43,160 nucleotides of DNA, taken from positions 1 through 43,160 of IMG/VR virus record IMGVR_UViG_3300003322_000095. One strand, 5' to 3'. Shown here one piece after another: positions 6,707-27,808 of this stretch. Source of the stretch: a virus. Positions within the stretch are counted from its first letter, which is position 1, and each line of letters starts with the position of its first letter. The translations under genes and the position numbers were made by a program. Under the pieces are notes generated by a model that was given only the letters and a program-made list of their open reading frames with translations, searched no databases and was not told the DNA's origin.

Positions 6707-6895
6707 ATGGAAAATCAACCGTCAATCGCATCGCATTCCCTGCTACCAGCCGAGGCCAAGGCGAAGCTGATTCGCGCCGCGTTGGCCGGCACCAATCGAC
6801 AGCGCGCCGTCGAATCCGCCATTGCTTGGGTCAAGAGCATGTACCCAGAGTGTTTTCGTCATGAGGAGATCAGATGCGGCACATTGTCGGAGTGA
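6707..6895 (+). CDS. Small hypothetical protein (62 aa)
   Basis: ATG at 6707 with AAGGG 6 bases upstream; an earlier ATG at 6680 lies inside the -10 of the promoter and is rejected. The helical sequence (LLPAEAKAKLIRAALAGTNR) has no known domain. It overlaps the following HTH gene by 22 bases. First gene of the packaging transcript. Confidence 0.55.
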   Translation: MENQPSIASHSLLPAEAKAKLIRAALAGTNRQRAVESAIAWVKSMYPECFRHEEIRCGTLSE

Positions 6896-7122
6896 ACGAG
6901 CGGGGTATGCGCGTCGGCGAAGATCACCAGAACGCGAAGCTGAGCAATCATGAGGTCGACCTGATCCGCGCACTGCGTGAGGAGCATGGCATGACCTATG
7001 CGCAGATCGCCGAGAAGTTCGAGATCGCCAAGGAGACCGTGGCTGACATCGTCAAATGCCGTCGCCGTGCTCAAGTGCCGGTGGCCTGGCGTGCCGTGAC
7101 GAGCGGCGTTATTTTGGGCTGA
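6874..7122 (+). CDS. Helix-turn-helix protein
   Basis: 82 residues. The HTH lies at about residues 34-60 (LREEHGMTYAQIAEKFEIAK then TVADIVK), a resolvase/homeodomain-like type. The ATG has AGGAG upstream. It sits directly before the terminase genes, so it could be a late regulator, possibly the factor that recognises the late-promoter box found at four later sites; this is only inference from position. Confidence 0.65.
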   Translation: MRHIVGVNERGMRVGEDHQNAKLSNHEVDLIRALREEHGMTYAQIAEKFEIAKETVADIVKCRRRAQVPVAWRAVTSGVILG

Positions 7123-9781: not shown

Positions 9782-9846
9782 GTGTGCGTACTGCCTGGCC
9801 ACGACACGATACTGCCCCCATCCAATTCTGCTGGGGGCGCGTCGTG
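9780..9846 (+). promoter_or_regulatory. Late promoter A with RBS-covering hairpin
   Basis: Box AGGTGTGCGTA at 9780-9790, 17 bases, then GATACT at 9808-9813; expected start near 9820. A hairpin spans the promoter: CACGAC (9800-9805) pairs with GTCGTG (9841-9846), and GCCCCCA (9814-9820) with TGGGGGC (9832-9838). The downstream arm contains the GGGGG ribosome-binding site and the GTG start of the next gene. RNA that starts at 9820 lacks almost all of the upstream arm. Confidence 0.65.
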
Positions 9847-10296
9847 CGTATCGTCGAAACTACCATCACCGACAAGGTCGACCAGATCGCCGAATTGCTG
9901 CGCGCCCACTGGGACGAGATCGCGCTCAACAAGGACGTGATGGTGCTTAAGCCGGACGTCGACAAGTACCGTCAGTTGGAGTCCATGGGCCTGGTACTGA
10001 CGTTGGTAGCCTACGACGATGACGACCAGATCATCGGCTACTCCATCAATTTCATCCAACACCACCTGCACTACGCAGACCTGAAGTACGTCGCCAATGA
10101 CGTGCTGTTCGTTCGGCAAGACCTGCGCGGCAGTACCCGCATCGGCCGCCAGTTGATCGCTGAAACCGAAGCCAAGGCCAAGGCCATCGGCGCGCAACTG
10201 GTGCTGTGGCACGCCAAGGAAGGCACGGCGCTGGCTACACTGTTGCCGCGCATCGGCTACCAGGTGCAGGACATCGTTTTCAGCAAGAGGGCTTGA
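9844..10296 (+). CDS. GNAT-family N-acetyltransferase
   Basis: 150 residues. The acetyl-CoA loop is seen in VRQDLRGSTRIGRQLIAE (residues about 90-107), preceded by a strand DVLFV, and a late LLPRIGYQVQD completes the fold. The acceptor is unknown. GTG start is chosen because GGGGG lies 6 bases upstream and the late promoter A starts about 24 bases before it. Similar GNAT proteins next to portal genes occur in BPP-1-like phages (recollection); a role in modifying a virion or host protein is inference. Confidence 0.8.
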   Translation: MRIVETTITDKVDQIAELLRAHWDEIALNKDVMVLKPDVDKYRQLESMGLVLTLVAYDDDDQIIGYSINFIQHHLHYADLKYVANDVLFVRQDLRGSTRIGRQLIAETEAKAKAIGAQLVLWHAKEGTALATLLPRIGYQVQDIVFSKRA

Positions 10297-10298
10297 TC

Positions 10299-10601
10299 AT
10301 GGGTTATTCCGCCGCCGCCGCCGTCGTGTTGTCCGTTGCCTCCTCCGTATACAACGGGGAGCAGCAGAAGAAATCGGCCGAGGCAGCGCGCCAGCAGGCC
10401 GAGCGGCAGGCCAAGAAGCAAGAGGTGGCCGCCGACGAGGCCTTCAACGCCGCCAACAAGAAGAAGCCCAACGTCGCTGGGGCCATTTCTTCCGCCCAGC
10501 AGGACGCCCAAGGTGGCGCCTCCGGTACCATGCTGACCGGCCCGCAAGGGGTCGACGCCTCGACCCTGCCGCTGGGCAAATCCACGCTGTTGGGCGGCTG
10601 A
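10299..10601 (+). CDS. Small virion-region protein with N-terminal hydrophobic segment and coiled coil
   Basis: 100 residues. A hydrophobic start (AAAAVVLSVASSVY) is followed by a Gln/Ala/Lys-rich coiled coil at about 20-55 and a Gly-rich tail ending LPLGKSTLLGG. This layout is common for the small protein just before the portal in T7/BPP-1-like podoviruses. Its role is not established. It ends one base before the portal ATG. Confidence 0.65.
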   Translation: MGYSAAAAVVLSVASSVYNGEQQKKSAEAARQQAERQAKKQEVAADEAFNAANKKKPNVAGAISSAQQDAQGGASGTMLTGPQGVDASTLPLGKSTLLGG

Positions 10602-10602
10602 C

Positions 10603-12288
10603 ATGGTCTCTATTCCGGCGACAGAACTGCGCCAACAACTCGACAACCGGTGGTCGCAGTTGCAGAACGAGCGCTCCAGTTGGATCAGCCATTGGCGTGA
10701 GATCAGCGACCACCTGCTGCCCCGCAGTGGGCGCTTCTTCCTGCAGGACCGCAACAAGGGCGATCGGCGCCATAACGCCATCTACGACAACACCGGCACG
10801 CGCAGTCTGCGCATTCTGGCCGCCGGCATGATGGCCGGCATGACCAGCCCGGCGCGCCCGTGGTTTCGCCTGGCCACCGCTGATCCCGAGCTGATGAAGT
10901 CGAGCGCCGTCAAGACATGGCTGTCCGACAGCACGCGACTGATGCTGGACGTGTTCCAGCGCTCCAATACCTACCGCGCGCTGCATGCCATGTACGAGGA
11001 ATTGGGGGCCTTCGGCACCGCCGCCTGCATCATCGCCGACGACTTCGAGGACGTGATCCGGCTGTTCCCGCTCACCGCTGGGGAATACGCCATCGCCACC
11101 GACTACCGCGGCGAGGTGTGCACGCTGTTCCGCGAGTTCCAGATGACGGTCAGCGCCATGGTCAAGGAGTTCGGCCGCGAGCAGTGCAGTGCCATGGTCC
11201 AGAGCATGTACGACCGTGGCACGTTGGACGCCTGGGTGACGGTGGTGCACGCCATCGAGCCGCGCGCCGACCGCGACCCGACCAAGCGAGACGGCCAAAA
11301 CATGGCGTGGCGCTCGATCTACTTCGAGCAGAGCGGCGACCGCGGCCAGGTGCTGCGCGAATCCGGCTTCACCAAGTTTCCGGCCTTGGTGCCGCGCTGG
11401 GCCACCGCCGGCGGCGATATCTACGGCAACAGCCCGGGCATGGAATCCCTCGGCGACATCAAGCAGCTGCAGCACGAGCAGTTACGCAAGGCGCAGGGCA
11501 TCGACTACATGACCAAGCCGCCGCTGCAGGTGCCGACCAGCATGAAGAACCGCGATGTCGACACGCTGCCCGGCGGCGTGTCGTTCGTCGACCCGGCCAA
11601 CCCGAACGGCGGCATTCGTACCTCGTTCGAGGTGCGGCTCGATCTGAGTCACCTGTTGGCCGACCTGCAGGACGTGCGCCAGCGCATCAGCAGCGCGTTT
11701 TATGCCGACCTGTTCCTGATGCTGGCCAATAGCTCCAACACCAACATGACCGCGACCGAAGTGGCCGAGCGCCACGAGGAGAAGATGTTAATGCTGGGGC
11801 CGGTGGTGGAACGACTGCAAAACGAGCTGCTCGATCCGCTGGTGGACATGACCTTCGAGCGGCTGCTGTCGACCGGCGTGCTGCCGCCTCCCCCGGAAGA
11901 ATTGCACGGCCAGCCGCTGAACGTCGAGTACGTCAGCGTGCTGGCGCAAGCGCAACGAGCTATCGGCACCAACAGCGTGGATCGCTTCGTCGGCAACCTG
12001 GGTGGGGTGGCGCAGTTCAAGCCGGAGGTGCTGGACAAGTTCGACAGCGACGAGTGGGCCGACGCCTACAGCGACATGCTCGGCATCGACCCGCGCCTGA
12101 TTGTGCCATCCGACAAGGTCGCCGCCGTGCGCCAGCAGCGCGCCCAGGCCCAGGCCCAAGCCGCGCAAGCCGAGCGTGCCAATCAAGTGGCCGATACCGC
12201 GCAGAAGCTCGGCAACACGCCCACCACCGGAGGCAACGCTGCCAGCGACATCCTGTCGGCGTTCTCCGGCTACACCTCAGGAAGCTAA
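10603..12288 (+). CDS. Portal (head-to-tail connector) protein
   Basis: 561 residues, a usual size for T7-type portals. The N-terminal LLPRSGRF and the segment TRSLRILAAGMMAGMTSPARP are typical of podovirus head-tail connecting proteins, and the C-terminal part has a Gln/Ala-rich helix and a flexible tail. Twelve copies form the ring through which DNA enters and leaves. The order terminase, portal, scaffold, coat supports the call. Confidence 0.92.
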   Translation: MVSIPATELRQQLDNRWSQLQNERSSWISHWREISDHLLPRSGRFFLQDRNKGDRRHNAIYDNTGTRSLRILAAGMMAGMTSPARPWFRLATADPELMKSSAVKTWLSDSTRLMLDVFQRSNTYRALHAMYEELGAFGTAACIIADDFEDVIRLFPLTAGEYAIATDYRGEVCTLFREFQMTVSAMVKEFGREQCSAMVQSMYDRGTLDAWVTVVHAIEPRADRDPTKRDGQNMAWRSIYFEQSGDRGQVLRESGFTKFPALVPRWATAGGDIYGNSPGMESLGDIKQLQHEQLRKAQGIDYMTKPPLQVPTSMKNRDVDTLPGGVSFVDPANPNGGIRTSFEVRLDLSHLLADLQDVRQRISSAFYADLFLMLANSSNTNMTATEVAERHEEKMLMLGPVVERLQNELLDPLVDMTFERLLSTGVLPPPPEELHGQPLNVEYVSVLAQAQRAIGTNSVDRFVGNLGGVAQFKPEVLDKFDSDEWADAYSDMLGIDPRLIVPSDKVAAVRQQRAQAQAQAAQAERANQVADTAQKLGNTPTTGGNAASDILSAFSGYTSGS

Positions 12289-12291
12289 GCC

Positions 12292-12612
12292 ATGGCTAGT
12301 CCCGATTACCGCTATTTCGGCCATCCTGCCGCCATCTCGGACGTGGTGGACTTGGAGGGCAATGCCCGCGTCAACATCTCGACCAGCTCCACCGGGGCAC
12401 AAAGCGCCGCGCTGGAGGAGGGCATCTATGACGTGTGGAGCGACGTTGATTGCTATCTCAAAGTCGCCACGACCGCCAACGACGTGACCACGTCCAACGG
12501 CTACCTGCTGCGCGCCAATAACACCATCCCGGTGTTCGTGCGGCGTAATTCCAAGATCGGCGTGATCCTCGCCTCGGGCACCGGCACGCTGTCTTATCAC
12601 CTGATCGGGTAA
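12292..12612 (+). CDS. Hypothetical virion protein (106 aa)
   Basis: Predicted all-beta (many Val/Thr/Ser strands such as ARVNISTSSTGAQSA) and without cysteine-rich or enzymatic motifs. AGGAAG lies 7 bases before the ATG. Position between portal and scaffold suggests a head decoration or tail component; no family recognised. Confidence 0.65.
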   Translation: MASPDYRYFGHPAAISDVVDLEGNARVNISTSSTGAQSAALEEGIYDVWSDVDCYLKVATTANDVTTSNGYLLRANNTIPVFVRRNSKIGVILASGTGTLSYHLIG

Positions 12613-12615
12613 GCC

Positions 12616-13020
12616 ATGCGCCAACGACAAAACAATAGCGTCGCCGCTGCCGGAACCCAGCAGCTGCTGTTCATCAAACGTGGCGCGAACCTGCAAAGCA
12701 CGGCCGATCAAGCGCTGACCAAGCAGTTCTCCGGCACCAACTACGTCATCACCAAGGTGCTGGCCGTCACCAAGAGCGGCGGCGCGACCGTGGCCTGTGC
12801 CGGCGGGCTCTACACTGCCGCCAGCAAGGGCGGATCGGCCCTGGTTGCCGCCACCCAGTCGTGGCTGGGCGCCAGCGCCGCCGGCAAGGCGGTCGACGCC
12901 ACGCTCGCGGCTGTAGTCGGCACCGACGTGCAGAGCGCCACGCCGATTTTTAGCCTGACCACCGGCTCGACCGCCGCCGCCACCGCCGATCTGTTCGTGT
13001 TCGGCCTGATCGTTGACTAA
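12616..13020 (+). CDS. Hypothetical virion protein (134 aa)
   Basis: Ala/Thr/Gly-rich, predicted beta structure, ending in VFGLIVD. Begins four bases after the previous stop with only a weak ribosome-binding site. It may be a head decoration protein similar in composition to the protein at 15466. No family recognised. Confidence 0.6.
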   Translation: MRQRQNNSVAAAGTQQLLFIKRGANLQSTADQALTKQFSGTNYVITKVLAVTKSGGATVACAGGLYTAASKGGSALVAATQSWLGASAAGKAVDATLAAVVGTDVQSATPIFSLTTGSTAAATADLFVFGLIVD

Positions 13021-13031
13021 AGGGGAATGAC

Positions 13032-13343
13032 ATGGCTCTCGTGAGCATGAAAACCGGCAATGACGACTATGTGGACAGCGGCCCCAACCCGTATGGCTAC
13101 GGACTGTGCATCCGACTGAACGACGAGCAGTGCGCGGCGCTCGGCATCACCGAGCCGCTCAAGGCCGGCAGCGTGGTGATGCTGACCGCCCATGCCTTCG
13201 TCGCCAGCGCGACGCAGTCGGTGGAGGGTGACAGCGACGACGCCGGGCCGGACGTCTGCATGGAACTGCAGATCACCGACCTGAGTCTCGGCAGCACTGG
13301 CAAGACCGACGGCGAGCGCGCCTCGCTGCTGTACGGCGATTAA
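13032..13343 (+). CDS. Capsid staple-like protein
   Basis: 103 residues. The start MALVSMKT, the central NPYGYGLCIRLNDEQ and the late ELQITDLSLG match, as I recall, the family annotated as capsid staple proteins, which pin neighbouring coat subunits on the outer shell. An AAGGGG site precedes the ATG. The next gene is under late promoter B. The name is moderately certain, the structural role follows from context. Confidence 0.6.
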   Translation: MALVSMKTGNDDYVDSGPNPYGYGLCIRLNDEQCAALGITEPLKAGSVVMLTAHAFVASATQSVEGDSDDAGPDVCMELQITDLSLGSTGKTDGERASLLYGD

Positions 13344-13346
13344 GCC

Positions 13347-13380
13347 AGGTGTGCGTACTCGCGCCCCCCGGTCTTATCGT
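13347..13380 (+). promoter_or_regulatory. Late promoter B, probably giving a leaderless mRNA
   Basis: Box AGGTGTGCGTA at 13347-13357, 17 bases, then TATCGT at 13375-13380. Six bases later is the ATG at 13387, so the expected transcript start falls on the A of the start codon. No Shine-Dalgarno sequence is visible before that ATG. Confidence 0.55.
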
Positions 13381-13386
13381 TTCTGC

Positions 13387-13707
13387 ATGACTCAAGATTC
13401 CCATTTCGATCCACTCGATACCCAAGCCCAGCAACGCGCTCGCGATGATGCGGCCGATCGCGCCCGTCTCGCAGCTGATCTGGAGGCCAAGGACATCGTG
13501 TGGCTGATGGGGAACAAACGCGGCCGCCGCATCATGTGGCGGCTGCTGGAAAAAACCGGCGTCTATCGCTGCTCGTTCACCGGCAACAGCACGACCTTCT
13601 TCAACGAAGGCCAGCGCAATGTCGGACTGATGCTCACGGCACAGATCCACGAGCACGCGCCGGACGCCTACGCACTGATGCTCAAGGAGCGACGCGAACA
13701 TGAGTGA
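13387..13707 (+). CDS. Bbp19-like protein
   Basis: 106 residues. The pattern DIVWLMGNKRGRRIMWRLLE, followed by GVYRCSF and EGQRNVGL, is that of the family named after Bbp19 of Bordetella phage BPP-1, found between portal and coat genes. Its role in the head is unknown. The ATG lacks a ribosome-binding site (see promoter B). It overlaps the scaffold gene by eight bases. Confidence 0.75.
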   Translation: MTQDSHFDPLDTQAQQRARDDAADRARLAADLEAKDIVWLMGNKRGRRIMWRLLEKTGVYRCSFTGNSTTFFNEGQRNVGLMLTAQIHEHAPDAYALMLKERREHE

Positions 13708-14374
13708 CACGCTGATGACGGCCGACGCAACCACCACTGGTTCGGCAGACCAGCAGACGGCTTCCACGGAAACGGAAACCGATGCCGCCACCACGGAAGC
13801 CAACCAGCAGCAAAGCGCCACCACCGAGGACGGCACCGACACCAGTACCGAAACCAAGACGGACGGTGATGGAACGGATGGCGATACCGTCAAGACCGGC
13901 GCGCCGGAAGCCTACACCGAGTTCACGATGCCGGACGGCGTCACGCTGAGCGACGACCTGACCGGCCAGATCAAGGACTTCGCCAAGCGCAGCAACCTGA
14001 CCCAGGAGCAGGCGCAGGAACTGGCCACGCTGGCTGCCGAACGCAAGGCGGGCGACAGCAAGGCGGCGCAGGAAGCGGCCACCCAAGCGGTTGAGCAGGC
14101 CAAGGCGCAATGGATGGCCGACGCCAAGGGCGATAAGGAATTCGGCGGCGACAAGCTCGGCGAGAACCTGTCGTTCGCCAAGAAGGCGCTCGACCAGTTC
14201 GGCACCCCGGAATTGCGCACGTTGTTGGATGAGTCTGGACTGGGCAATCACCCGGAAGTGATCCGGTTGATGGTCCGGGCGGGCAAGGCAATCAGCGAGG
14301 ATCGCATCGTCACCAGTGGTCAGGCGTCGCCCGGCCAACGTGACGCGGCGAAAGTCCTCTACCCGAATCAGTAA
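13700..14374 (+). CDS. Scaffolding protein
   Basis: 224 residues. The first 75 are Thr/Asp/Glu/Gln-rich and disordered; the rest is highly charged helix (SNLTQEQAQELATLAAERK) typical of capsid-assembly scaffolds that guide coat proteins and then leave. Directly before the coat gene, the usual place. Acidic and free of Cys. Confidence 0.82.
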   Translation: MSDTLMTADATTTGSADQQTASTETETDAATTEANQQQSATTEDGTDTSTETKTDGDGTDGDTVKTGAPEAYTEFTMPDGVTLSDDLTGQIKDFAKRSNLTQEQAQELATLAAERKAGDSKAAQEAATQAVEQAKAQWMADAKGDKEFGGDKLGENLSFAKKALDQFGTPELRTLLDESGLGNHPEVIRLMVRAGKAISEDRIVTSGQASPGQRDAAKVLYPNQ

Positions 14375-14388
14375 AGGAGTAAGACCCT

Positions 14389-15450
14389 ATGGCAACCCTG
14401 CCGAAAGCCGGCGCCGTCACCCTGCTGGACGTCGCCAAGTCGCTCGACCCGGACGGCAAGACCTCGACTGTGGTCGAACTGCTGAACCAGAGCAATGAAA
14501 TCCTCACCGACATGCTGTGGATGGAAGGCAACCTGCCGACCGGCCACCGCACCACCATCCGTACCGGACTGCCGACGGCGGTATGGCGTCAGATGTACCA
14601 GGGTGTGCCGCCGAGCAAGTCGGTGCGCGCCCAGATCGACGACGCCTGCGGCATGCTGGAAACCCGCGCCGAGGTCGACAAGGACATCGCCGAGCTGAAC
14701 GGCAACAGCGGCGAGTACCGCTTGTCCGAAGCGCAAGCGTTCCTCGAGTCGATGAACCAGACCATGGCGCAGACGCTGTTCTACGGCGACACCACCGTCA
14801 ACCCGGAGCGCTTCATGGGCCTGGCACCGCGCTACTCGTCGCTGTCGGCGGGCAACGCGCAGAACATCATCGACGCCGGCGGCACCGGCTCCGACAACAC
14901 ATCGGTGTATCTGGTGGTGTGGGGCAAGAACACCATCAGCGGCATTTTCCCGAAGGGCTCGAAGGCCGGCTTGCAACACGAGGACCTCGGCCTGATCGAC
15001 GCCTTCGACGGCAGCAACAACCGCTACCGCGCCTACGCCGACCACTGGCAGTGGAAGTGCGGCGTGTCGCTGCGCGACTGGCGCTACGTGGTGCGCATCG
15101 CCAACGTCGACGTGTCCGATCTGGTCGGCCAGACCGGCACCCAGGCCACGACCGCCAGCACCATGCTGATCAAGCTGATGCTGAAGGCGATGGCGCGCAT
15201 CCCGTCGATGGGCATGGGCCAGCCGGTGTTCTACGCCAGCCGCACCGTCAAGGAGATGCTGTCGATCTCGGCGCTGGACAAGTCGCAGAACGCGCTGTCG
15301 ATCACCGATGCCGTGAACCAGTTCGGTAGCGTGAACCCGGGCAGCGTGGCCGGGTCCGGTGCCGGCATCAGTGGTGGCACGCTGAAGTTCTTCGGCGTTC
15401 CGGTGCGCACCGTCGACCAGCTGCTGGCTACCGAAGCCCGCGTCGTGTAA
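14389..15450 (+). CDS. Major capsid protein (GP7/Bbp17-type)
   Basis: 353 residues. The N-terminal part (VTLLDVAKSLDPDGK, then ILTDMLWMEGN and HRTTIRTGLP) is characteristic of the GP7-type coat proteins of BPP-1-like phages, which have the HK97 fold. A strong ribosome-binding site (AAGGAG) precedes the ATG. It follows the scaffold and precedes the cement protein, the order of the BPP-1 cluster. This is probably the most abundant virion protein. Confidence 0.9.
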   Translation: MATLPKAGAVTLLDVAKSLDPDGKTSTVVELLNQSNEILTDMLWMEGNLPTGHRTTIRTGLPTAVWRQMYQGVPPSKSVRAQIDDACGMLETRAEVDKDIAELNGNSGEYRLSEAQAFLESMNQTMAQTLFYGDTTVNPERFMGLAPRYSSLSAGNAQNIIDAGGTGSDNTSVYLVVWGKNTISGIFPKGSKAGLQHEDLGLIDAFDGSNNRYRAYADHWQWKCGVSLRDWRYVVRIANVDVSDLVGQTGTQATTASTMLIKLMLKAMARIPSMGMGQPVFYASRTVKEMLSISALDKSQNALSITDAVNQFGSVNPGSVAGSGAGISGGTLKFFGVPVRTVDQLLATEARVV

Positions 15451-15465
15451 CCAGGAGACCACGAC

Positions 15466-15894
15466 ATGATTCTCGATTCGCAAGAAATCTTCTCGGCGGC
15501 GCAGGCGGTCACCTCGACCGGCGATACCGCATCCACCAACGTGCTGGATACCCTGGCGGCGCAGGACGAAGGCGTCGGCCATTCGGTCTATCTGGTGTGC
15601 CAGGTCAACACCACCGCCACCTCGGGCGGCTCGGCCACCGTGCAGGCGGTGTTGCAGACCTCGGCGGACAACTCCAGCTGGAGCGACGTGGCGGCCGGTG
15701 CCGCCGTCGCGGTGGCCTCGGTCACGGCCAAGACGCAGCTGTTCCGTACCAAGCTGCCGCTCGGCTTGCAGCGTTACGTCCGCGTGGTATGGCGTGTCGG
15801 CACCGCGGCGCTGACCGCCGGCAAGTTCGACGCCTTCCTGACCATGGACATCCAGCAGAGCACGCCGTATGCCTCTGGCTTCAGCGTGTCCTAA
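15466..15894 (+). CDS. Bbp16-like capsid cement protein
   Basis: 142 residues, Ala/Thr/Val-rich, predicted beta sandwich. The start MILDSQEIFSAAQAVTSTGD and the later LGLQRYVRVVWRVGT match the pattern of Bbp16 cement proteins that trimerise on the capsid outside and strengthen the shell. CAGGAG precedes the ATG. Confidence 0.78.
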   Translation: MILDSQEIFSAAQAVTSTGDTASTNVLDTLAAQDEGVGHSVYLVCQVNTTATSGGSATVQAVLQTSADNSSWSDVAAGAAVAVASVTAKTQLFRTKLPLGLQRYVRVVWRVGTAALTAGKFDAFLTMDIQQSTPYASGFSVS

Positions 15895-15907
15895 CCGGGA
15901 GTGAACG

Positions 15908-16099
15908 ATGGCTATCACAGTGGAAGCCACCCAGCGTGGCTATTACGGCAACCTGCGCGAGCCGGGCGACCGGTTCGATATCGTCGACAAACAGGCGTTC
16001 AGCACCAAGTGGATGCGGCGCGTCAGCGACAAGGCTACGGCTGAGGTGGTGACGCTGCCGGTCGAGCCGACACCAGAAGGCGACGCCGCGCTGAATTGA
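15908..16099 (+). CDS. Small hypothetical protein (63 aa)
   Basis: A short protein with RGYYGNLREPGDRFDIVD and KWMRRVSD, a motif set often seen in small phage proteins between coat and tail genes. CGGGAG precedes the ATG. Ends the capsid transcript, 17 bases before a strong terminator. Confidence 0.65.
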   Translation: MAITVEATQRGYYGNLREPGDRFDIVDKQAFSTKWMRRVSDKATAEVVTLPVEPTPEGDAALN

Positions 16100-16116
16100 G
16101 CGTGGCAGCCATAACC

Positions 16117-16140
16117 ACGGGGCCTGATGGCCCCGTTTTT
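16117..16140 (+). terminator. Intrinsic terminator after the capsid genes
   Basis: ACGGGGCC (16117-16124), loop TGAT, GGCCCCGT (16129-16136), then T to 16140: an 8-bp perfect GC stem with a U tract. It should reduce transcription from capsid into tail genes, giving high coat and lower tail expression. No late-promoter box follows it directly, so the tail genes at 16161-18945 depend on read-through. Confidence 0.88.
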
Positions 16141-16160
16141 GCGAGAAGAAAGGAGCCGGC

Positions 16161-16766
16161 ATGGCTAGTGATGTCGAAATCGCCAACCTGGCCTTGGCGC
16201 ACCTTGGCGACGACGCCACGGTGGCCAGCCTCAACCCGCCCGAGGGTAGCGCGCAGGCCGAGCATTGCGCCCGCTTCTATCCGCACGCCCGCGACGTGCT
16301 GCTCGAGATGCACGACTGGAACTTCGCCACCGTGCGCGTTCAGCCGGCCCTGGTCGCCGATGCCGTCACCGGGACGTGGCTGTACGGCTACGAGGGGCCC
16401 AGCGACGCGGTGCGGCTGCTGGCCGTGCTGGCACCCAATGGGCAGGACGATCAACCGCAAGACTTCGTGGTCGAGACCGACGCGACCGGCCGCGACCTGA
16501 TCCTGACCAACCAGGCCGATGCCGTGCTGCGCTACACGCGCTACGTGACCGACACCGCCAAGTTCTCGGTGCTGTTCGTCGACGTGCTGTCGTTGCTGCT
16601 GGCGTCGTATCTGGCCGGGCCGGTGATCAAGGGCTCGGAAGGCCGCGCCGAGTCGGAACGCCTGAAGAAGGAAGCGTCGGCGATGCTGGCGGCGGCCTCC
16701 ACCTCCGACGCCAACCAGCGCCATTTCCACCCGACGCACACCGCCTCCTGGATCGGGGCACGCTGA
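16161..16766 (+). CDS. Tail tubular protein A-like adaptor (T7 gp11-type)
   Basis: 201 residues. The start DVEIANLALAHLGDDA and the segment FYPHARDVLLEMHDWNFA are the standard signature of the gp11-like adaptor that links portal and tail nozzle. An AAGGAG site precedes the ATG. Followed by the nozzle gene after one base. Confidence 0.85.
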   Translation: MASDVEIANLALAHLGDDATVASLNPPEGSAQAEHCARFYPHARDVLLEMHDWNFATVRVQPALVADAVTGTWLYGYEGPSDAVRLLAVLAPNGQDDQPQDFVVETDATGRDLILTNQADAVLRYTRYVTDTAKFSVLFVDVLSLLLASYLAGPVIKGSEGRAESERLKKEASAMLAAASTSDANQRHFHPTHTASWIGAR

Positions 16767-16767
16767 C

Positions 16768-18945: not shown

Positions 18946-19010
18946 GTGTGCGTAGGAATTCCCCACGGCGCTACAGTCCCGACATAAGGGATACTCCGCC
19001 GAGGGGATTT
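18944..19010 (+). promoter_or_regulatory. Late promoter C with RBS-covering hairpin
   Basis: Box AGGTGTGCGTA at 18944-18954, 17 bases, TACAGT at 18972-18977; expected start near 18984. The upstream arm TCCCC-A-CGGCG (18960-18970) pairs with CGCCG-A-GGGGA (18997-19007), one A/A mismatch, and TCCC (18977-18980) pairs with GGGA (18988-18991) inside. The downstream arm contains the GAGGGG ribosome-binding site (19001-19006) for the ATG at 19011. RNA started at 18984 has no upstream arm. Confidence 0.65.
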
Positions 19011-19610
19011 ATGGGCTTTTCTGCCGCGACTAACGCTAGTGCCGCCTCCGCTGGTTCGGCCTCCACTGGTTCGACTGCCGCCGCCGGTTCGTCAGGCCTG
19101 GGCACGGCCTCGCTCGGCTTCATGGTGGCCGGCATGGCGTCGTCCATGATTGGCAGTTATTACGGCGCCCAGGCGCAAAAATCGACGCTGGCGTTTCAGG
19201 CGTCGATGAATGACATCAACGCGCGCATCGCCGAGAAGAACGCGCAGCAAACCATTCTGGCCGGCCAGCGTCAGGAGCAAGCGACGCGACTGCAAACGGC
19301 GTCGCTGAAAAGCGATCAACGCGCCGCCATGGCCGCCAACGGCATCCAACTCGGCGAGGGCACCGCCGCCAACGTCATTGCCAGTACCGACGTGCTGGGT
19401 GAGATCGACGCCAACACTGTGGCGATGAACGCGCTGCGCCAAGCTTGGGGCTACCGTACCCAATCCACCAACTACGGCAATGAGGCATTGATGCAGCGCG
19501 CCGCTTCCGGCGCCATCAGTCCCGGTATGAGCGCGGCCACCTCGCTGCTCGGCAGCGCCGGCTCCGTGGCGCAGTCGTGGTATCAGATGAACAAGACTGG
19601 AGCGCGCTGA
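19011..19610 (+). CDS. Internal virion protein (small)
   Basis: 199 residues. A Gly/Ala/Ser-rich start, a hydrophobic stretch (LGFMVAGMASSMIGSYYGAQ at about 37-56), then a long Gln/Ala-rich coiled coil and AWGYRTQSTNYGNEALMQR. This pattern fits the internal core proteins of T7/P22-like virions that are ejected with DNA and enter the envelope. Stop overlaps the next start (TGATG). Confidence 0.7.
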   Translation: MGFSAATNASAASAGSASTGSTAAAGSSGLGTASLGFMVAGMASSMIGSYYGAQAQKSTLAFQASMNDINARIAEKNAQQTILAGQRQEQATRLQTASLKSDQRAAMAANGIQLGEGTAANVIASTDVLGEIDANTVAMNALRQAWGYRTQSTNYGNEALMQRAASGAISPGMSAATSLLGSAGSVAQSWYQMNKTGAR

Positions 19611-21769
19611 TGCCGATCGTTCCCACCTACGGCGCGGCCCCGCGCGTCGCTACCTCTGGCGGTTTCGATGGCGCACTCAGCGGTGGAGACGACCGTTCCG
19701 CGCAGATCGGCGCACAGCAGACCGCCAACCTCGGTGGGGCGCTGACGCAGTCAGGCGAATCGCTGGGCCGTGTCGCCATCGACATGCAGCAGATGGTCAA
19801 CCAGACCCGCGTCAACGACGCGCAGAATCAGTTGCGCGAAACGATCCTACAGAAGACCTACGACCCGACCAACGGTTATCTGGCGCTGAAGGGCAAGGCC
19901 GCGCTCGACCCCGACGACAACGGCCAAGCGCTGCCGGACCGCTACGCCAGTGACGTGCAGAACATCGCCAGCATGATCAGCGACCGGCTCGGCAATGATG
20001 CCCAGCGCCGCGAATTCAATCTGCAAGCGCAGAACATGGTGACGCAACTGCGCGGCGACGCCGAACGTCACATGATGGGCGAGTTCGTCGCCTACCATAA
20101 CTCGGTGCAGGACGGCACTATCGACCTGTCTGCCGAGCAGGCCAAAGCGGCCTGGAACAACCCGGAACGCATTGCCCCGGCGGTCGATTCGATCAAGGCG
20201 GCGATCTACCAGAAGGGCCAGTTGAACGGCTGGTCGGCCTCGCAGATCGAGGCGGCCATGCTCAAGACCACCAGCGCCGTGCACAAGGACGTGGTGATGG
20301 CCGCGCTGGAGAACAACAACCCGACCTATGCGCTTGGCTACCTGGATCGGCACAAGGCCGACATGTCGGCCGACGACATCCTGCGCGTGCAGGGCCAGGT
20401 CAATCAAAGCGTGTGGTCGGCCCAGGCGCTGGGCGCGGTGCAGGTGGCGTCCACCAAACTGCAGACGCAGATCATGCCGGGGGACGCCGACCGCGCCTTT
20501 AACATCGCACTGGGCACCGAGTCGGGCAATCGCCAGTTCGACAGCAAGGGCCAGCCGCTGACGTCGCCAAAGGGCGCGATCGGCGCGGCCCAGGTGATGC
20601 CTACCACCGCACCGGAGGCGGCCAAGCTGGCCGGACTGCCATGGGACGAAAACCGCTACAAAAACGACGCCGAGTATAACCGGGCGCTGGGTCGGGCCTA
20701 TTTCAACAAGCAGGTGCAGGACTTCGGCGGCGATTTGGGGCGCGCCTACGCCGCCTACAATGCCGGTCCGGGCGCGGTGAGGGAGGCAATGAAGAAGGCC
20801 GAGCGCGCCGGTGATCGGCTGGTGCCGGCCAAGCCAGACGATTATCTGGCCTACCTGCCGAAGGAGACGCAGAACTACGTCGCCAAGAATCTGGCCAAGT
20901 ACGGCAGCGGCGGCGGAGCTCCGTCCCGTCCCACCGAATCCGACTTCATCAGCACGGCCCTAGAGCAACTGCCGCCGGGGGCCTCGCCGCAAGCGCTGAA
21001 GCTGACCCGCGAACAGGCCAAGCAACAATACGACCTGCTCAGCCGGTCGCTGAAGGACTCGGGCGACTCCGCCGTCAGCGAGGCGCAGCAATGGATCATC
21101 CAAAACGGCGGCAATTTCACCCAGCTGCCGGTGCCGCTGCGCAGCCGCGTGATGCAGTACGCGCCCGACAAGTACGACAGCCTGATGAAGTTCGCCGGGG
21201 AGATCGCCGCCGGGCCGCCGACCAAGACCGACTGGAACACCTACACCCAGCTGCGCGCCATGGCGTCCAGCAACCCGGTTCAGTTCGGCAAGACCGACCT
21301 GCGCAGCTACTATCCCCAACTGGCGCCCACCCAGCGCGAGCAGTTGCTGGACCTGCAGATGAAGGCCAAAGACCCCAAGCAGCACGCCGATGTCGCCAGT
21401 CTGTCCGAACAGCTGAGCAACGCGCACAACCTGCTGGGGTTTGGCCGTGGCGACGCGGTGAAAAAGGGCCAGTTCGACGATGCCGTGACGCAGCAGTTGG
21501 CGGCCGAGACGCGCGCCAAGGGCAAGCCACTGGACTTTGCCGAGCGCGACAAAGTCATCAAGCGCATGATGCTGCCAACCACCGGGGGCGGCTGGTTCAG
21601 CACGCCGCGCATGTACCAGTCGGCCGGCACGCCGGACGCGCTCACCGCCCAGCCGAAGCTGAGCGATAATGACCGCACGCTGATTATCGCCGCCCTCAAG
21701 GGCGAAGGGCTTCAGCCGACCGAGGCCAACATCCAGGCCCGTTTCAAACTGCGCTACGGAATCCGCTAA
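19610..21769 (+). CDS. Internal virion protein with lytic transglycosylase domain
   Basis: 719 residues. A goose-lysozyme/SLT-type domain lies at about 295-400: the catalytic Glu is E304 in GTESGNRQF, followed by GAIGAAQVMPTTA and YAAYNAGPGAV, the standard SLT motifs. The flanks are long helices. It would be ejected with the DNA and locally cut peptidoglycan so that the tail channel can cross the wall. Overlaps its neighbours by one base at each end. Confidence 0.85.
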   Translation: MPIVPTYGAAPRVATSGGFDGALSGGDDRSAQIGAQQTANLGGALTQSGESLGRVAIDMQQMVNQTRVNDAQNQLRETILQKTYDPTNGYLALKGKAALDPDDNGQALPDRYASDVQNIASMISDRLGNDAQRREFNLQAQNMVTQLRGDAERHMMGEFVAYHNSVQDGTIDLSAEQAKAAWNNPERIAPAVDSIKAAIYQKGQLNGWSASQIEAAMLKTTSAVHKDVVMAALENNNPTYALGYLDRHKADMSADDILRVQGQVNQSVWSAQALGAVQVASTKLQTQIMPGDADRAFNIALGTESGNRQFDSKGQPLTSPKGAIGAAQVMPTTAPEAAKLAGLPWDENRYKNDAEYNRALGRAYFNKQVQDFGGDLGRAYAAYNAGPGAVREAMKKAERAGDRLVPAKPDDYLAYLPKETQNYVAKNLAKYGSGGGAPSRPTESDFISTALEQLPPGASPQALKLTREQAKQQYDLLSRSLKDSGDSAVSEAQQWIIQNGGNFTQLPVPLRSRVMQYAPDKYDSLMKFAGEIAAGPPTKTDWNTYTQLRAMASSNPVQFGKTDLRSYYPQLAPTQREQLLDLQMKAKDPKQHADVASLSEQLSNAHNLLGFGRGDAVKKGQFDDAVTQQLAAETRAKGKPLDFAERDKVIKRMMLPTTGGGWFSTPRMYQSAGTPDALTAQPKLSDNDRTLIIAALKGEGLQPTEANIQARFKLRYGIR

Positions 21770-24700
21770 TGGCGAACCCCTTTTCGATCGAGGCTATCCA
21801 GTCCACCAACGACCAGCAGTCCGGCAACCCTTACAGCCTTGACACGATCCAGGGCGACCAGTCCGTGGCGCTGCGCTCGTCGTTAAATGCGGCGCTGCCG
21901 TCGAATCCCGATCAGGCGGCCAAGGCGCTGCAGTTGTCGCGTGCTACCGGGCTGGCGCCGGGCGCGGTCGAGGCCAATTTGCCCGAGGTCGCGCACTCGG
22001 CCGCGCTGGACGCGTACGAGCAGATGCTGGCCGGCGCGCCGACAACGCGCCAGTTCCTGACGGTACCGGACAACGCCAAGCTGGCACATGACGACGTCGA
22101 GAATCTGACCGGACTGGAGCGCATCGTCGCACCCGCCGTCAGCACCTTGCGCGCCATCCCCGCCGGCTTGCAGAAGATTGCCGCGAACCTGGTCTACGGG
22201 GTGCCGGAGTCGTTGATGAGCTTGGGCAGCCAGTACATCGGCCAGCCGTTGGTCGGCACCTTCCTGCCGGAAGACCCGTTCGCGCGTGGACAGGCGGCTT
22301 TCAATCGCTGGCGCAAGAGCGGTGAGCAGGTGGGCGAGCAGATCGCCGGGGCGCAGCCGCAAGGCTTCGTGGCGCGCTCGATCAATTCTGGCGCCGAGTC
22401 GTTCGGCCGCATGCTGCCCGGGCTGGCGGCCGCCGTGGTCACCAAGAACCCGGCCTACGCCATCGGTGCCGGCGCGCTGGATCAAGGCAACCAGTCGATG
22501 CTGCGCGGCCTGGAGGAGGGATTGAGCCCGACGCAATCGCTCGCCTATGGGCTGCAGGACGCCACCGCCGAGGCCGTGACCGAGAAAATCCCGATAGGCC
22601 GGCTGATCAAGGATTTGCATGCGGGCGCGTCCGTGTGGAAAACCCTCGGCCACCAGATCCTGACCGAAACCCCGACAGAGATGGTCGCCACCGCTTGGCA
22701 GAACTTCAACGAATGGGCCAACCTGCACCCGGAAAAGACGCTGAGCGATTACCTCGGCGAGCTGCCCGAGGCCGAGGCGCAAACCGTCTTGGCAACGATC
22801 ACTACCTCGGTGCTGAGTGCCGGACTGGGCAAGGGGGCCTATGCTCTGGCACACCGCGCCGAACAGCGCCGCATCGACGCGCAACAGGCCGAGCAGAACG
22901 CGCAGGCGCTGACGGCGCTCGATCAATTGGCGCAGGCCAATAAGACGCGCACCCGCGACGCGCAGACGTTCCAGTCGTTCATCGCGCAGGCGGCGGAGCA
23001 GGGTCCGGTGCAGGATGTCTACCTATCGGCCAACGATCTGGCGCAATCCGGCGTGGACCCGGCCAAATTGGCCGCGGCGTCACCGTCGGTCGCCGCACAA
23101 CTGCCCACCGCCGTCGCCACCGGGGGCGACGTGCGTATCCCGGTCGAGGAGTTCGCCACCACCGTCGCCGGCACCGACTTGGCGCAAGGCCTGATCCCGC
23201 ATCTGCGCACCGACCCGAACGGGTTCAGTCAAGCGCAGGCGCAGCAATATTTCCAGGGTGATGGTGAGCAACTGCGCCAGGAGGTGGAGCAGGTGCTGAC
23301 CGAGAAGCAGCAGGATGACGCCTTCAAGGCCTCGCGCGACGCCGTGCGCGATGACTTCCAGCGGCAACTCGATAGCGTCGGACGCTTCACCAAGGACGTG
23401 AACAAGGCCTATGCCACGCTGGCGGCCAACTTCTACGCGGTGACCGCCGCCAAGCTGGGCATCACGCCACAGGAGATGGCCGAGCGCTACCCTCTGCGCG
23501 TGCAGGCTGAGGCGCTGCCCGGGGCGAAGGTGCTGGAGCAGGAGGAGCGTCCGGCTGGGAACTTGGCCGCGCAACTGGAAACCGAGCATGAGGGGCTGAA
23601 GCTTGACCTGTTGGATGGTAGGGCGGGTAAGCCATGGGTCTTATCGCGTATTGTCGTACCGGAAGGCGAACGCAGCAGTGGCATCGGATCCGAAGTAATG
23701 CAGCGCATTGTCGACGCGGCCGATACAGCCGGGCGAACCGTGGCGTTGACGCCCTCCAGCGACTTTGGCGGCAACAAGAAACGGCTGACCGAGTTCTATA
23801 AGCGCTTCGGTTTCGTCGAGAACAAGGGTAAGAATAAGGACTACGAAATCAGCGAGGCGATGTATCGGTCGCCGAAAAATCTGGCAGTCCAGCAGGACGG
23901 TCAAGGCGAACTGCAACAGAAGCAGCGCGGCAGCATCAGCCTGCCGGACGATATCACCCAGTCGCCCAGCGTCATCACACTGCTGAAGGACGCCGACGCC
24001 TCCACCTTCTTCCACGAGATGGGGCATTACTTTCTGGAGGTCTACCACGACGTTGCCAGCCGCGAGAATGCGCCGCAGGAAATCAAGGACGACCTGAATG
24101 CCGTGTTCGGCTGGTTCGGCGATGGCCTCGACGCCGCCAAGTGGTCGGCCATGACGCTGGACGAGAAGCGCCCCTATCACGAGCAGTTCGCGCGCGGTTT
24201 CGAGGCCTTCCTGTTCGAAGGCAAGTCGCCGTCGGTCGAGATGCAGGGGCTGTTCACCCGCTTCCGCGCCTGGTTTCTCAACGTCTATCGCTCGCTGACG
24301 GCGCTGAATGTCGAGCTGAGCGACGAGGTGCGCGGCGTGTTTGGCCGCATGCTGGCCAGCAGCGACGCCATCCAGCAGCAGGAAGCCTTGCAGGCCTTCG
24401 CGCCGATGTTCGCCACCGCCAGCGAGGCCGGCATGAGCGACGCGCAATTCAAGGCCTATCACGAACAAGGCGTCGAGGCGACACAGGACGCCATCAGCAA
24501 GCTGGAGACGCGCAGCCTGAAGGACATGCAGTGGCTGTCCAATGCGCGCAGCAAGCTGTTGCGCCAATTGCAACGCGACGCCGCCGAGAAGCGCAAGGCG
24601 GTCCGCCAGGAGGTCGAGCCGGAGGTGATGGCCGAGCCGGTCAACCTGGCGCGCCGCTTCCTCAAGCGCGGCGAGGTCGAGCAGAACGGCGAGGTGATCA

Positions 24701-27700
24701 AGGCCGAGAGGGGGGCCAAGCTATCCATTGCGGCGCTGAAGGAGATGTACCCGGAAGGGGCCTTGGCCGATCAGCCGGATTGGCGTGCGCTGGGCTACGG
24801 CAAGTACGGCATGCTGGCCGAGGAGGGCCTGCATCCCGACGCAGTGGCAGCGATCTTCGGCTTCGACTCGGGCGACCAGCTGGTCCATGCGCTGCTGACC
24901 GAGCCGCCGGCCAAGGACCGGATCACGGCGCTGACCGACCAGCGCATGCTGGAGCGCTACGGCGACATCAATTCGCCGGCGGCCTTGGCGCGCGCCGTCG
25001 ATGAGGCGATCCATAACGACCTGCGGACCCGCTTCATCGTCACCGAGGCCAACGCCCTGGCCGATGCAGTGGGCAAGCCGCGCCTGGTCGCCGCCGCCGC
25101 CAAGCAGTTCGCCGAGCAGGTCGTGTCGCGGCTGCGCGTGCGCGACCTGAAGCCGGGCCAATTCACCAACGCCGAGGCGCGCGCCGCCCGGGCGGCCGAG
25201 AAGGCGCGCAAAGTGGGTGATCTCGCTACGGCCTCCACCGAGAAACGCAATCAGGTGTTCCAGAACCTGGCTGCCAAGGCGGTGCTCGAGACGCGCACCG
25301 AAGTCGACAAGGCCGTGCGCTACCTGAAAAAGTTCGAGCGCAGCGGCACGCGCCAGAATCTGCGCGGCGAGTTCCTGGCGCAGCTGGATGAGCTGCTGGC
25401 GCGTTTCGACCTGCGCTCCAGCCAGAGCCTGACGGCGATTGATCAGGCCAAGCGTCAGGCGCTGGCCGACTGGATGCAGCAGGAGGCCGAACGGCTGGCC
25501 GCGCCGACGCCGGAACTGGCTGGCTTCGTGCTGGACGAGACCTACCGCAAGAGCTACAAGGACCTGACCGTCGAGGAATTGCGCGGATTGCGTGACAGCG
25601 TCAAGCAGCTGGAGCATCTGGCGCGCCGCGAACAGCAGGCCTACCTGGCCCAGCGCAACATGACCATCCAGCAGGAGGTCGCGGCCGGTGTGGCCGAGAT
25701 GCAGGCGGCCTATCCCGAGGCCTTCGACGGCGATGATCTGCCGGTGTTGCCGTCACCGCTGGGGCACCAGTACGCGCCGAAACTGGCCCAGTCGCTGGCC
25801 GACTCCGGTGGCCGGCTGAAAGCCGAGTTCCTGCCGATGGAGACGCTGGTGGACCTGCTCACGGCGGGGCGGTTCGGCCAGTTGCACGACTCGCTGTTCG
25901 GCCGAATCAGTCACGCCTCGGACCATAAGGCCGAACTGGCCGGGCAAATCCGCGCGCGGCTGAAGCCGGCCTATGACGCGTACACGCTGCGCGAAAAGCG
26001 CGATTTCGCCCGTAAGGAAATCCCCGGCACGCGCATGACGCGCGAGAACCTGCTGATGCTGGCGCTGCATTACGGCAACGTCGAAGGGCGTCAGCGGCTG
26101 GCCTCGCAGGGGTTCAACGACCTGATCGTCGGCCAGTTGCTGCGCCACCTGAGCGACAAGGACATGAACCTGGCCGAGGCGATCTGGTCGCTGAACGACG
26201 ACTTCATCTGGCCGCAGTATCAGGCCCTGAACGAGCGCACGCGCGGCATCGCGCCTCCCAAGGTGCAGCCGGCGCCGATGACGATCAACGGCCGCACGCT
26301 GCAGGGCGGCTACGTCAAGCTGGTGTACGACGCGCAGTTCGATGAGGCCACGCGCGGACGCGACAGCATGGACGACGCGATGGCGATGATCGCCGGGCGC
26401 AGTGGCGGCACTGCCAAGACCAACCAGGGCAGCAGCACGCAGCGCATCGACGAGCTGTCACGCATGCCCCTGCTGGAATTGCGCGCGGTCGGCCAGGCGG
26501 TCAACGAGCATATCCACGATATCGCCTATCGCGAGGCGGTGGCCGACATGGTACGCCTGCTGCGCGAGCCGAAGCTGCGCGATGCGATCAAGGCCGTGTC
26601 CGGCAATGCCGTCTATACCGAGTTGCTGGCCAAGGTCAATGAGGTGGCGGCCAGGCCGATGGACCCGTCCGGGGCCGTGCTGAAGGGCTTGAACCTGGCG
26701 CGCAAGAACACCACCATCGTGCTGATGTCGGGGGTCAAGACCGCGCTAGTCAACTACTCTGGCCTGATTCCGGCGCTGACGCGGGTCAATGCCGGCGCGC
26801 TAACCAAGGCCGTCGCCAAGGTGCACAGTCCTCGTGGGATGCAGATGATCCGCTTTGCCGAAGAAAAATCCAGCTACATGCGTGAGCGCAACAACGCCTT
26901 TACCAGCGATCTGCAGCAGCAGATGGACAGCCTGACGGTGAAGAGCCAGATCCTGCCGAGCATGAGCAGCTTCCTGATCCTGATGCGCATGGTGGACCGC
27001 ATGACCTCGACCAGCGTCTGGCTGGCGGCCTACGAGGATGGCAACAAGCGCTTCAGGCTCGACGACGGCACGCCGGATGAGGCGCGCGCCATCGAGTACG
27101 CAGACAGTGTCACCCGCACCACGCAGGGCTCGGGGCGCGACGTGGATACCTCGAAAATCCAGACGCGGTTCGGGCCGTGGTCAAAGCCGTTCCTGATGTT
27201 CTACAGCTATTTCAACAGCCAGGGCGCGCTGCTGGTTCGCCAGGGCGTGATTTCCGAACGCGCCTGGGCCAACGGTGACCGCGTCAAGGCGGTCGGCCTG
27301 TTCGCGGCGTCCTACCTGGCCATCGTGGTGGTGCCGGCGTTGATCAATGATATCGCCGCGGGCAAGTGTGACGACGCCATCAGCGGCAATGAGGGCTGGA
27401 CCCGCTGCACGGCCAAGGCCATCGCCATGAACATGGCCGGCTTCGTCCCGGTGGTGCGTGACATGGCCCCCTATGTGTGGGGCACGATCGACGACAAGGA
27501 GCCGAATTTCGGACTGCGCATGACCGCTCTGACGGCCTACTTCGAGGGCATCGGCAAGGGCATCGGCTCGGCCGTCAAGGCGGCTCAAGGCGAGGCGGGT
27601 GACACGGACACAAAGAACATTTTCATGGGCATGGCCTTCGCCCTGGGCTTGCCCGGCCTGCTGATGTGGAACGCGATCACCGGCACCAAGGAATTCGCCG

Positions 27701-27750
27701 ACGGAGAGGCGGGGCCGCAAGCCATCGTATTCGGCGCCCCAAAGCACTAG
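21769..27750 (+). CDS. Giant polyvalent internal virion protein (GNAT and zincin-like domains)
   Basis: 1993 residues, far longer than T7 gp16. Visible parts: a helical N-terminal region to about 600; a GNAT-like domain at about 608-705 (SSGIGSEVMQRIVDAA, then LTEFYKRFGFV); a zincin metallopeptidase site H749-E-M-G-H753 in FFHEMGHYF; long charged helices to about 1300; a region with KNTTIVLMSGVKTALVNYSG at about 1645-1665 and FYSYFNSQGALLVRQGVI near 1811-1828, resembling large polyvalent protein modules; and a hydrophobic helix (LFAASYLAIVVVPALI) near 1845. Such proteins are packed in the head and ejected into the host, where the enzymatic domains could act early. Starts in a TAATG overlap; its TAG stop begins box D. 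Confidence 0.82.
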   Translation: MANPFSIEAIQSTNDQQSGNPYSLDTIQGDQSVALRSSLNAALPSNPDQAAKALQLSRATGLAPGAVEANLPEVAHSAALDAYEQMLAGAPTTRQFLTVPDNAKLAHDDVENLTGLERIVAPAVSTLRAIPAGLQKIAANLVYGVPESLMSLGSQYIGQPLVGTFLPEDPFARGQAAFNRWRKSGEQVGEQIAGAQPQGFVARSINSGAESFGRMLPGLAAAVVTKNPAYAIGAGALDQGNQSMLRGLEEGLSPTQSLAYGLQDATAEAVTEKIPIGRLIKDLHAGASVWKTLGHQILTETPTEMVATAWQNFNEWANLHPEKTLSDYLGELPEAEAQTVLATITTSVLSAGLGKGAYALAHRAEQRRIDAQQAEQNAQALTALDQLAQANKTRTRDAQTFQSFIAQAAEQGPVQDVYLSANDLAQSGVDPAKLAAASPSVAAQLPTAVATGGDVRIPVEEFATTVAGTDLAQGLIPHLRTDPNGFSQAQAQQYFQGDGEQLRQEVEQVLTEKQQDDAFKASRDAVRDDFQRQLDSVGRFTKDVNKAYATLAANFYAVTAAKLGITPQEMAERYPLRVQAEALPGAKVLEQEERPAGNLAAQLETEHEGLKLDLLDGRAGKPWVLSRIVVPEGERSSGIGSEVMQRIVDAADTAGRTVALTPSSDFGGNKKRLTEFYKRFGFVENKGKNKDYEISEAMYRSPKNLAVQQDGQGELQQKQRGSISLPDDITQSPSVITLLKDADASTFFHEMGHYFLEVYHDVASRENAPQEIKDDLNAVFGWFGDGLDAAKWSAMTLDEKRPYHEQFARGFEAFLFEGKSPSVEMQGLFTRFRAWFLNVYRSLTALNVELSDEVRGVFGRMLASSDAIQQQEALQAFAPMFATASEAGMSDAQFKAYHEQGVEATQDAISKLETRSLKDMQWLSNARSKLLRQLQRDAAEKRKAVRQEVEPEVMAEPVNLARRFLKRGEVEQNGEVIKAERGAKLSIAALKEMYPEGALADQPDWRALGYGKYGMLAEEGLHPDAVAAIFGFDSGDQLVHALLTEPPAKDRITALTDQRMLERYGDINSPAALARAVDEAIHNDLRTRFIVTEANALADAVGKPRLVAAAAKQFAEQVVSRLRVRDLKPGQFTNAEARAARAAEKARKVGDLATASTEKRNQVFQNLAAKAVLETRTEVDKAVRYLKKFERSGTRQNLRGEFLAQLDELLARFDLRSSQSLTAIDQAKRQALADWMQQEAERLAAPTPELAGFVLDETYRKSYKDLTVEELRGLRDSVKQLEHLARREQQAYLAQRNMTIQQEVAAGVAEMQAAYPEAFDGDDLPVLPSPLGHQYAPKLAQSLADSGGRLKAEFLPMETLVDLLTAGRFGQLHDSLFGRISHASDHKAELAGQIRARLKPAYDAYTLREKRDFARKEIPGTRMTRENLLMLALHYGNVEGRQRLASQGFNDLIVGQLLRHLSDKDMNLAEAIWSLNDDFIWPQYQALNERTRGIAPPKVQPAPMTINGRTLQGGYVKLVYDAQFDEATRGRDSMDDAMAMIAGRSGGTAKTNQGSSTQRIDELSRMPLLELRAVGQAVNEHIHDIAYREAVADMVRLLREPKLRDAIKAVSGNAVYTELLAKVNEVAARPMDPSGAVLKGLNLARKNTTIVLMSGVKTALVNYSGLIPALTRVNAGALTKAVAKVHSPRGMQMIRFAEEKSSYMRERNNAFTSDLQQQMDSLTVKSQILPSMSSFLILMRMVDRMTSTSVWLAAYEDGNKRFRLDDGTPDEARAIEYADSVTRTTQGSGRDVDTSKIQTRFGPWSKPFLMFYSYFNSQGALLVRQGVISERAWANGDRVKAVGLFAASYLAIVVVPALINDIAAGKCDDAISGNEGWTRCTAKAIAMNMAGFVPVVRDMAPYVWGTIDDKEPNFGLRMTALTAYFEGIGKGIGSAVKAAQGEAGDTDTKNIFMGMAFALGLPGLLMWNAITGTKEFADGEAGPQAIVFGAPKH

Positions 27751-27801
27751 GTGTGCTTACTCGATAGCCTGACTCCGACAATGGGGTCAGGCTATTGAGG
27801 G
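27749..27801 (+). promoter_or_regulatory. Late promoter D inside a 17-bp hairpin
   Basis: Box AGGTGTGCTTA (one change, T for G) at 27749-27759, 17 bases, GACAAT at 27777-27782; expected start near 27789. Bases 27760-27776 pair with 27783-27799: 17 bp including two G-U pairs, with the -10 hexamer as the six-base loop. The downstream arm contains most of the ribosome-binding site GAGGG (27797-27801). RNA started at 27789 lacks the upstream arm. Confidence 0.7.
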
Positions 27802-27808
27802 CATGTCC

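Follow-up and report, generated by a model that had tools for sequence, protein, structure and literature searches.

Do the late promoters of a BPP-1-like phage lie inside hairpins that hide the next ribosome-binding site, and could translation of the downstream genes depend on the promoter that made the RNA? The window analyzed here is the whole of IMG/VR record IMGVR_UViG_3300003322_000095, a BPP-1-like podovirus of 43,160 bases. Its structural genes match those of Bordetella phage BPP-1 (portal 68%, Bbp13 62%, and terminase 62% identity), and other genome arms encode RecT, YqaJ, RdgC, and RusA-type genes and methyltransferases. An initial annotation had described hairpins at three sites, A, C, and D. 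On the + strand, site A precedes a GNAT-like acetyltransferase gene (9844–10296; PHROG 1249; Pfam Acetyltransf_7 slightly under cut-off), site C precedes a Bbp12-like internal virion protein gene (19011–19610; PHROG 418), and site D precedes a tail (spike or fibre) gene (27809–30049) with a conserved N-terminal domain that begins MTIS. A tail gene start at 27803 was replaced by ATG 27809 as the likely start, as homologues begin MTIS; the geometry of site D is unaffected. Inside the structural cluster, ahead of a Bbp14-like gene, a GGGGCC..GGCCCC hairpin followed by TTTTT (16076–16141) is probably an intrinsic terminator, and similar hairpins occupy the same place in relatives.

Four window sites, starting at 9782, 13349, 18946, and 27751, carry a GTGTGCG/TTA core and an xAxxxT hexamer exactly 26 nt from the core start. 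The chance expectation for such sites in the window is 0.03 (≤1 mismatch), and the four found are not due to chance. Relative to the predicted transcript start, the core spans about −38 to −30. All four are on the + strand. Site A (9782–9813) has core GTGTGCGTA at 9782–9790, a −10 GATACT at 9808–9813, and a predicted transcript start at ~9820; its 26-nt spacing is fixed in relatives too. Site B (13349–13389) has its core at 13349–13357, a −10 TATCGT at 13375–13380, and an ATG at 13387. Site C (18946–18977) has its core at 18946–18954, a −10 TACAGT at 18972–18977, and a predicted start at ~18984. Site D (27751–27782) has core GTGTGCTTA at 27751–27759, a −10 GACAAT at 27777–27782, and a predicted start at ~27789.

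Relatives each carry their own repeated version of the core at the same genes: GTGCCCGTG in BPP-1, and GTATACGTA, GTGCACGTA, ATGCACTTA, GTTCACTTA, GTACGCGTG, and others elsewhere. Because each lineage has its own version, a verbatim search for the window core word in relatives found none. Element discovery required a −10 and is biased toward it. Exact cores were then counted with no −10 requirement, giving 179 distinct copies on the late-gene strand vs 1 on the opposite strand, with xAxxxT at +26 in 96% of the 179 and in 0–14% (mostly <5%) at other offsets, for per-genome cores that were originally found using the −10. For relatives, a rule and not the annotation fixed the start codons and predicted transcript starts, some of which will be wrong. 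On this sequence evidence we take the elements as real, phage-specific late promoters with predicted transcript starts. Scanning viral and genome collections with the window core returned no relative of the window phage, in keeping with chance matches. No element family of this kind was present in the scanned genome portions of epsilon15, phiV10, and Carin1. A simple sigma70 promoter scan detected nothing at the window sites, and the T4-type late promoter box TATAAATA is absent from them; they have the −35-region core and xAxxxT at +26 instead. No description of BPP-1 late promoters or late transcription was found in the limited set of papers searched. One relative, L176 (PQ492659.1, Limnohabitans phage DC33), has a taxonomy line of Inoviridae, yet its genes match BPP-1-like podoviruses.

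The promoters serve two kinds of gene start. Of 193 distinct sites, 110 place the start codon 5 to 9 nt past the −10 (mostly 6 or 7), and their RNA should therefore begin on the AUG. This predicted leaderless class includes bbp19 nearly always, bbp24/GNAT often, and window site B, where the −10 is followed by ATG 13387 and no start-hiding hairpin was found. The remaining sites, which have a leader and a Shine–Dalgarno sequence (SD), are those of the Bbp12-like gene (site C), of the tail gene, and, in a subset of phages that includes the window phage, of the GNAT gene.

Hairpins occur at the three SD-bearing sites of the window, all on the + strand. At site A (9800–9846), GCCCCC (9814–9819) pairs with GGGGGC (9833–9838) over the SD, and CACGAC (9800–9805) pairs with GTCGTG (9841–9846) over the GTG start at 9844. 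At site C (18960–19007), TCCCCACGGCG (18960–18970) pairs with CGCCGAGGGGA (18997–19007) with one A·A mismatch, covering the SD GAGGGG (19001–19006). At site D (27760–27799), 27760–27776 pairs with 27783–27799 in a 17-bp stem with two G-U pairs, and the 3′ arm runs into the SD GAGGG (27797–27801). The site D loop, GACAAT (27777–27782), is exactly the −10 hexamer. All three sites share a 5′ arm upstream of the predicted transcript start and a 3′ arm over the SD. This geometry, the cover of the GTG at A, and the stem coordinates and loop at D agree with the initial annotation. Stop codons of the upstream genes lie ~10 to 20 nt before the stems, and from these coordinates a terminating ribosome should therefore cover little of them. 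Rfam 15 gave no match at gathering score in the window.

We infer the following mechanism. The spacer, −10, and first bases of a late promoter would double as the 5′ arm of a hairpin whose 3′ arm covers the SD or start codon of the next gene. Read-through RNA from upstream would hold both arms and be closed to ribosomes. RNA from the local promoter would lack the 5′ arm and be translatable, and translation of the gene would thus depend on a local promoter switched on by a putative phage activator. Leaderless promoters of the same set would reach a similar outcome by a simpler route, as their mRNA would start on the AUG and read-through RNA would have no SD there. The existence of read-through RNA is itself presumed, and calling it "early" is a guess; protection from any read-through, prophage included, would be expected to leave identical traces.

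Ranked by local stability alone, D is the one remarkable site in the window, in the top 0.6% of positions vs 8.7% for A and 13% for C. Shuffle tests gave z of −7.6 to −8.2 at D and spacer-shuffle p values of 0.01 at C and 0.14 at A. When upstream halves were swapped, the site's own half ranked 1 of 16 at A, 2 of 28 at C, and 1 of 19 at D. A and C are individually weak, and their weight comes from relatives. Tail-gene starts were collected from 36 phages, window included. When the sequence ahead of the predicted start was shuffled, the native hairpin outdid 95% of the shuffles at 25 of the 36 (median z −3.5). Swapping tail halves between lineages gave −12.4 kcal/mol for matched vs −4.9 kcal/mol for swapped halves (permutation p = 5e-5), and the own half was best of 19 in 13 lineages. 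Matched halves also paired better at C sites (−8.4 vs −4.7 kcal/mol; p = 5e-5) and at other SD sites (−6.5 vs −3.5 kcal/mol; p = 1.5e-4). The leaderless bbp19 sites gave −3.7 vs −3.1 kcal/mol (p = 0.09), and other leaderless sites a small difference (p = 0.004). Composition-controlled shuffling gave mean z values of −2.6 for SD tail sites, −1.2 for C sites, −1.2 for other SD sites, and −0.4 and −0.6 for leaderless sites; 124 clusters of SD gene starts that lack the element served as the control (mean z −0.15). SD sites differ from the control (p = 2e-8) and from leaderless sites (p = 0.0017), so that the hairpins are concentrated at SD sites.

Stems at the same place differ between lineages and pair within lineages, not between them, and the hairpins are thus renewed in unrelated sequence. 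This is the trace expected of compensatory evolution. Covariation was detected in one clade, the GTATACGT phages: in the hairpin that covers the bbp19 AUG, nine cells are doubly changed and the score is 0.268 vs 0.116 ± 0.027 for shuffles (0 of 500 as high; slid registers 0.015–0.091). Clear covariation was seen in this alignment, one of two examined; the other comprised six tail leaders read in fixed register. The compensatory change in stems that the initial annotation had proposed to look for in relatives is borne out by the swap and shuffle tests and by the alignment with clear covariation. Its reading of three unrelated stems as a selected, genome-wide design holds for the shared geometry and for selection over chance, but the arrangement is not uniform in the phage, as site B is leaderless. 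We consider the hairpins selected and family-wide, strongest at the tail gene, from the sequence comparisons. Many relatives miss a hairpin at one site or another, and about one-quarter of tail lineages have none; the tail hairpin is absent in L126, L019, L088, and DC33, and weak in L158. Three leaderless tail genes also carry strong hairpins, which end at the AUG, and SD hiding is therefore not the whole story. In the tail starts of L061, L064, L048, L050, and L054, the 5′ arm lies between the −10 and the transcript start and the SD is in the loop rather than the stem. A further geometry is seen at L129:13757, where the whole of a strong hairpin is downstream of the predicted transcript start and its loop holds the SD.

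Read-through and locally started RNAs were folded in silico. The probability that the window SD is unpaired in read-through RNA is 0.00 at A, 0.17 at C, and 0.02–0.08 at D, and in locally started RNA it is 0.18–0.30; these results are stable to the assumed start and upstream length. Folding therefore predicts an SD that is firmly closed at A and D, as the initial annotation had supposed, but an opening that is only partial, and small at C. At tail sites across the family, the SD of read-through RNA is predicted to be less accessible than when the upstream sequence is shuffled (p = 0.006), and it opens further in RNA from the local start (p = 6e-4; mean gain 0.23). Other non-C SD sites show occlusion relative to shuffles (p = 0.034) and opening (p = 0.007). 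At C sites, neither SD occlusion beyond shuffles nor opening in local RNA was significant. Accessibility over an earlier pool of all SD sites was not significant (p = 0.35), and a rule of SD accessibility that would hold at every SD site was rejected. For SD sites, the excess pairing of the spacer peaks 14–10 nt upstream of the start codon; for leaderless sites, the peak is 5–3 nt upstream. On these folding models, the proposed effect on translation appears well supported for the tail gene, moderately supported for GNAT-type SD sites, and weakly supported for C sites.

Promoter-in-hairpin licensing is, in our judgment, probably the explanation as a whole. The same hairpins might instead stop or process read-through transcription, as intrinsic terminators, RNase III sites, or 3′-end protection of the upstream message, with the SD overlap a by-product of tight packing. 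By eye, TTTTT follows the tail hairpin in BPP-1 (L004:36310–36371) and in the L085 phage (tail start L446), and the site D stem comes directly after a 1,993-codon gene. We regard this reading as improbable: an intrinsic-terminator scan found no terminator-like site and no T run after the hairpin at A, C, or D, most relatives likewise lack a T run, excess pairing follows the position of the start codon, SD accessibility at tail sites falls beyond shuffles, and the signal is weak at leaderless promoters, though these also follow genes. The TTTTT-ended tail hairpins of BPP-1 and the L085 phage may additionally terminate read-through RNA.

It is very unlikely that the inverted repeats act as DNA, whether as an operator, as a cruciform, or as a signal for promoter melting near the −10. 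The stems of a single genome have unrelated sequences and so offer nothing for a shared binder to recognize; leaderless promoters carry the same core yet are largely free of stems; and in many relatives the 3′ arm lies 10–20 nt beyond the −10, at the SD. A DNA role would suit the −10 in the loop at D, in L173, and in the GTATACGT bbp19 sites, and the small signal that persists at leaderless sites other than the tail gene. A somewhat larger, still low, probability attaches to selection of D alone in the window, with A and C as ordinary folds of GC-rich sequence. The stability ranks of A and C and the spacer shuffle at A speak for it, and their swap ranks and the enrichment of both site classes as groups speak against it. 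Under the preferred reading, licensing of translation by the local promoter, the foremost case would be the tail gene, with translation expected only from RNA of its own promoter.

A phage protein that reads the promoter core was sought. No RNA polymerase gene was seen among the genes scanned in the window. A small, single-HTH, Bbp27-like protein encoded ahead of the terminase genes (6874–7122, + strand) is a candidate only for the late activator and core reader. Its BPP-1 counterpart, Bbp27 (L004:15921–16157), is annotated as an endonuclease. Of 65 element-bearing loci, 45 yielded the HTH protein; many of the remaining 20 are short, and it is present in all four of these for which whole records were searched (L006, L008, L014, and L017). 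BL94 has the HTH protein and, by eye, a GTGCGCATG element. The protein is absent from the complete genomes of epsilon15, phiV10, and Carin1. A fold search gave generic HTH matches only (E >0.05), some to sigma region 4, and this weak similarity would fit a −35 reader. The protein co-occurs with the elements, but HTH sequence and core did not co-vary once relatedness was removed (partial Mantel r = 0.02, p = 0.38). We tentatively propose, as a possibility somewhat short of even, that a small phage HTH protein resembling sigma region 4 reads a dedicated class of late promoters in BPP-1-like phages, and that this class is coupled to translation either through leaderless starts or through hairpins that contain the promoter. 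Late proteins, and most of all the receptor-binding tail protein, would then be made only from late-activator RNA and never from read-through.

BPP-1 is the model phage of diversity-generating retroelements, and the analysis provides its late promoter consensus. Leaderless mRNAs are predicted for named genes, and a candidate activator is named. What was a T4 curiosity would become a family-wide, testable rule in which translation is licensed by the promoter that made the RNA, which suggests a way for compact phage genomes to keep overlapping transcripts without mixing their outputs.

The hairpin logic itself is already known from T4 gene e and sigG. In T4 gene e, and also soc, 49, and I-TevI, late promoters lie inside a hairpin that sequesters the ribosome-binding site; longer transcripts fold over the SD or start, and RNA from the promoter within the 5′ strand lacks the structure and is translated (PMC3014915). 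The initial annotation had named this precedent, and the comparison is apt. As in gene e, the promoter is contained in, or shares sequence with, the 5′ strand of the hairpin at A, C, D, and most tail sites of relatives, judged by predicted starts, and the SD and/or start codon is sequestered in window read-through RNA in silico. Unlike T4, which uses gp55-type promoters (TATAAATA), these phages have an unrelated core and −10, and the arrangement recurs, both at several genes of one genome and across a family, beside leaderless promoters of the same class. In Bacillus subtilis sigG, a large hairpin is proposed to block read-through RNA from PspoIIG (PMC5942855). There too the hairpin is present only in read-through RNA and not in local-promoter RNA, but sigG is a single cellular gene with sigmaF/sigmaG promoters. 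In IS10/Tn10, read-through RNA folds over the transposase start and the native transcript does not, which resembles the sites here; it differs in using the transposon end and in having no promoter set. A further comparison is BPP-1, in which the same late genes carry its own element, GTGCCCGTG, before bbp24, bbp19, and bbp9, with a hairpin of at least 12 bp before bbp9. Core and stem sequences differ from those of the window, the BPP-1 bbp9 hairpin ends in TTTTT, and bbp24, predicted to be leaderless in BPP-1, comes with an SD and a hairpin in the window. The features that look new are the promoter class, the family-wide gene starts with a promoter inside a hairpin, the prominence of the tail gene, and the presence of leaderless promoters within one and the same set.
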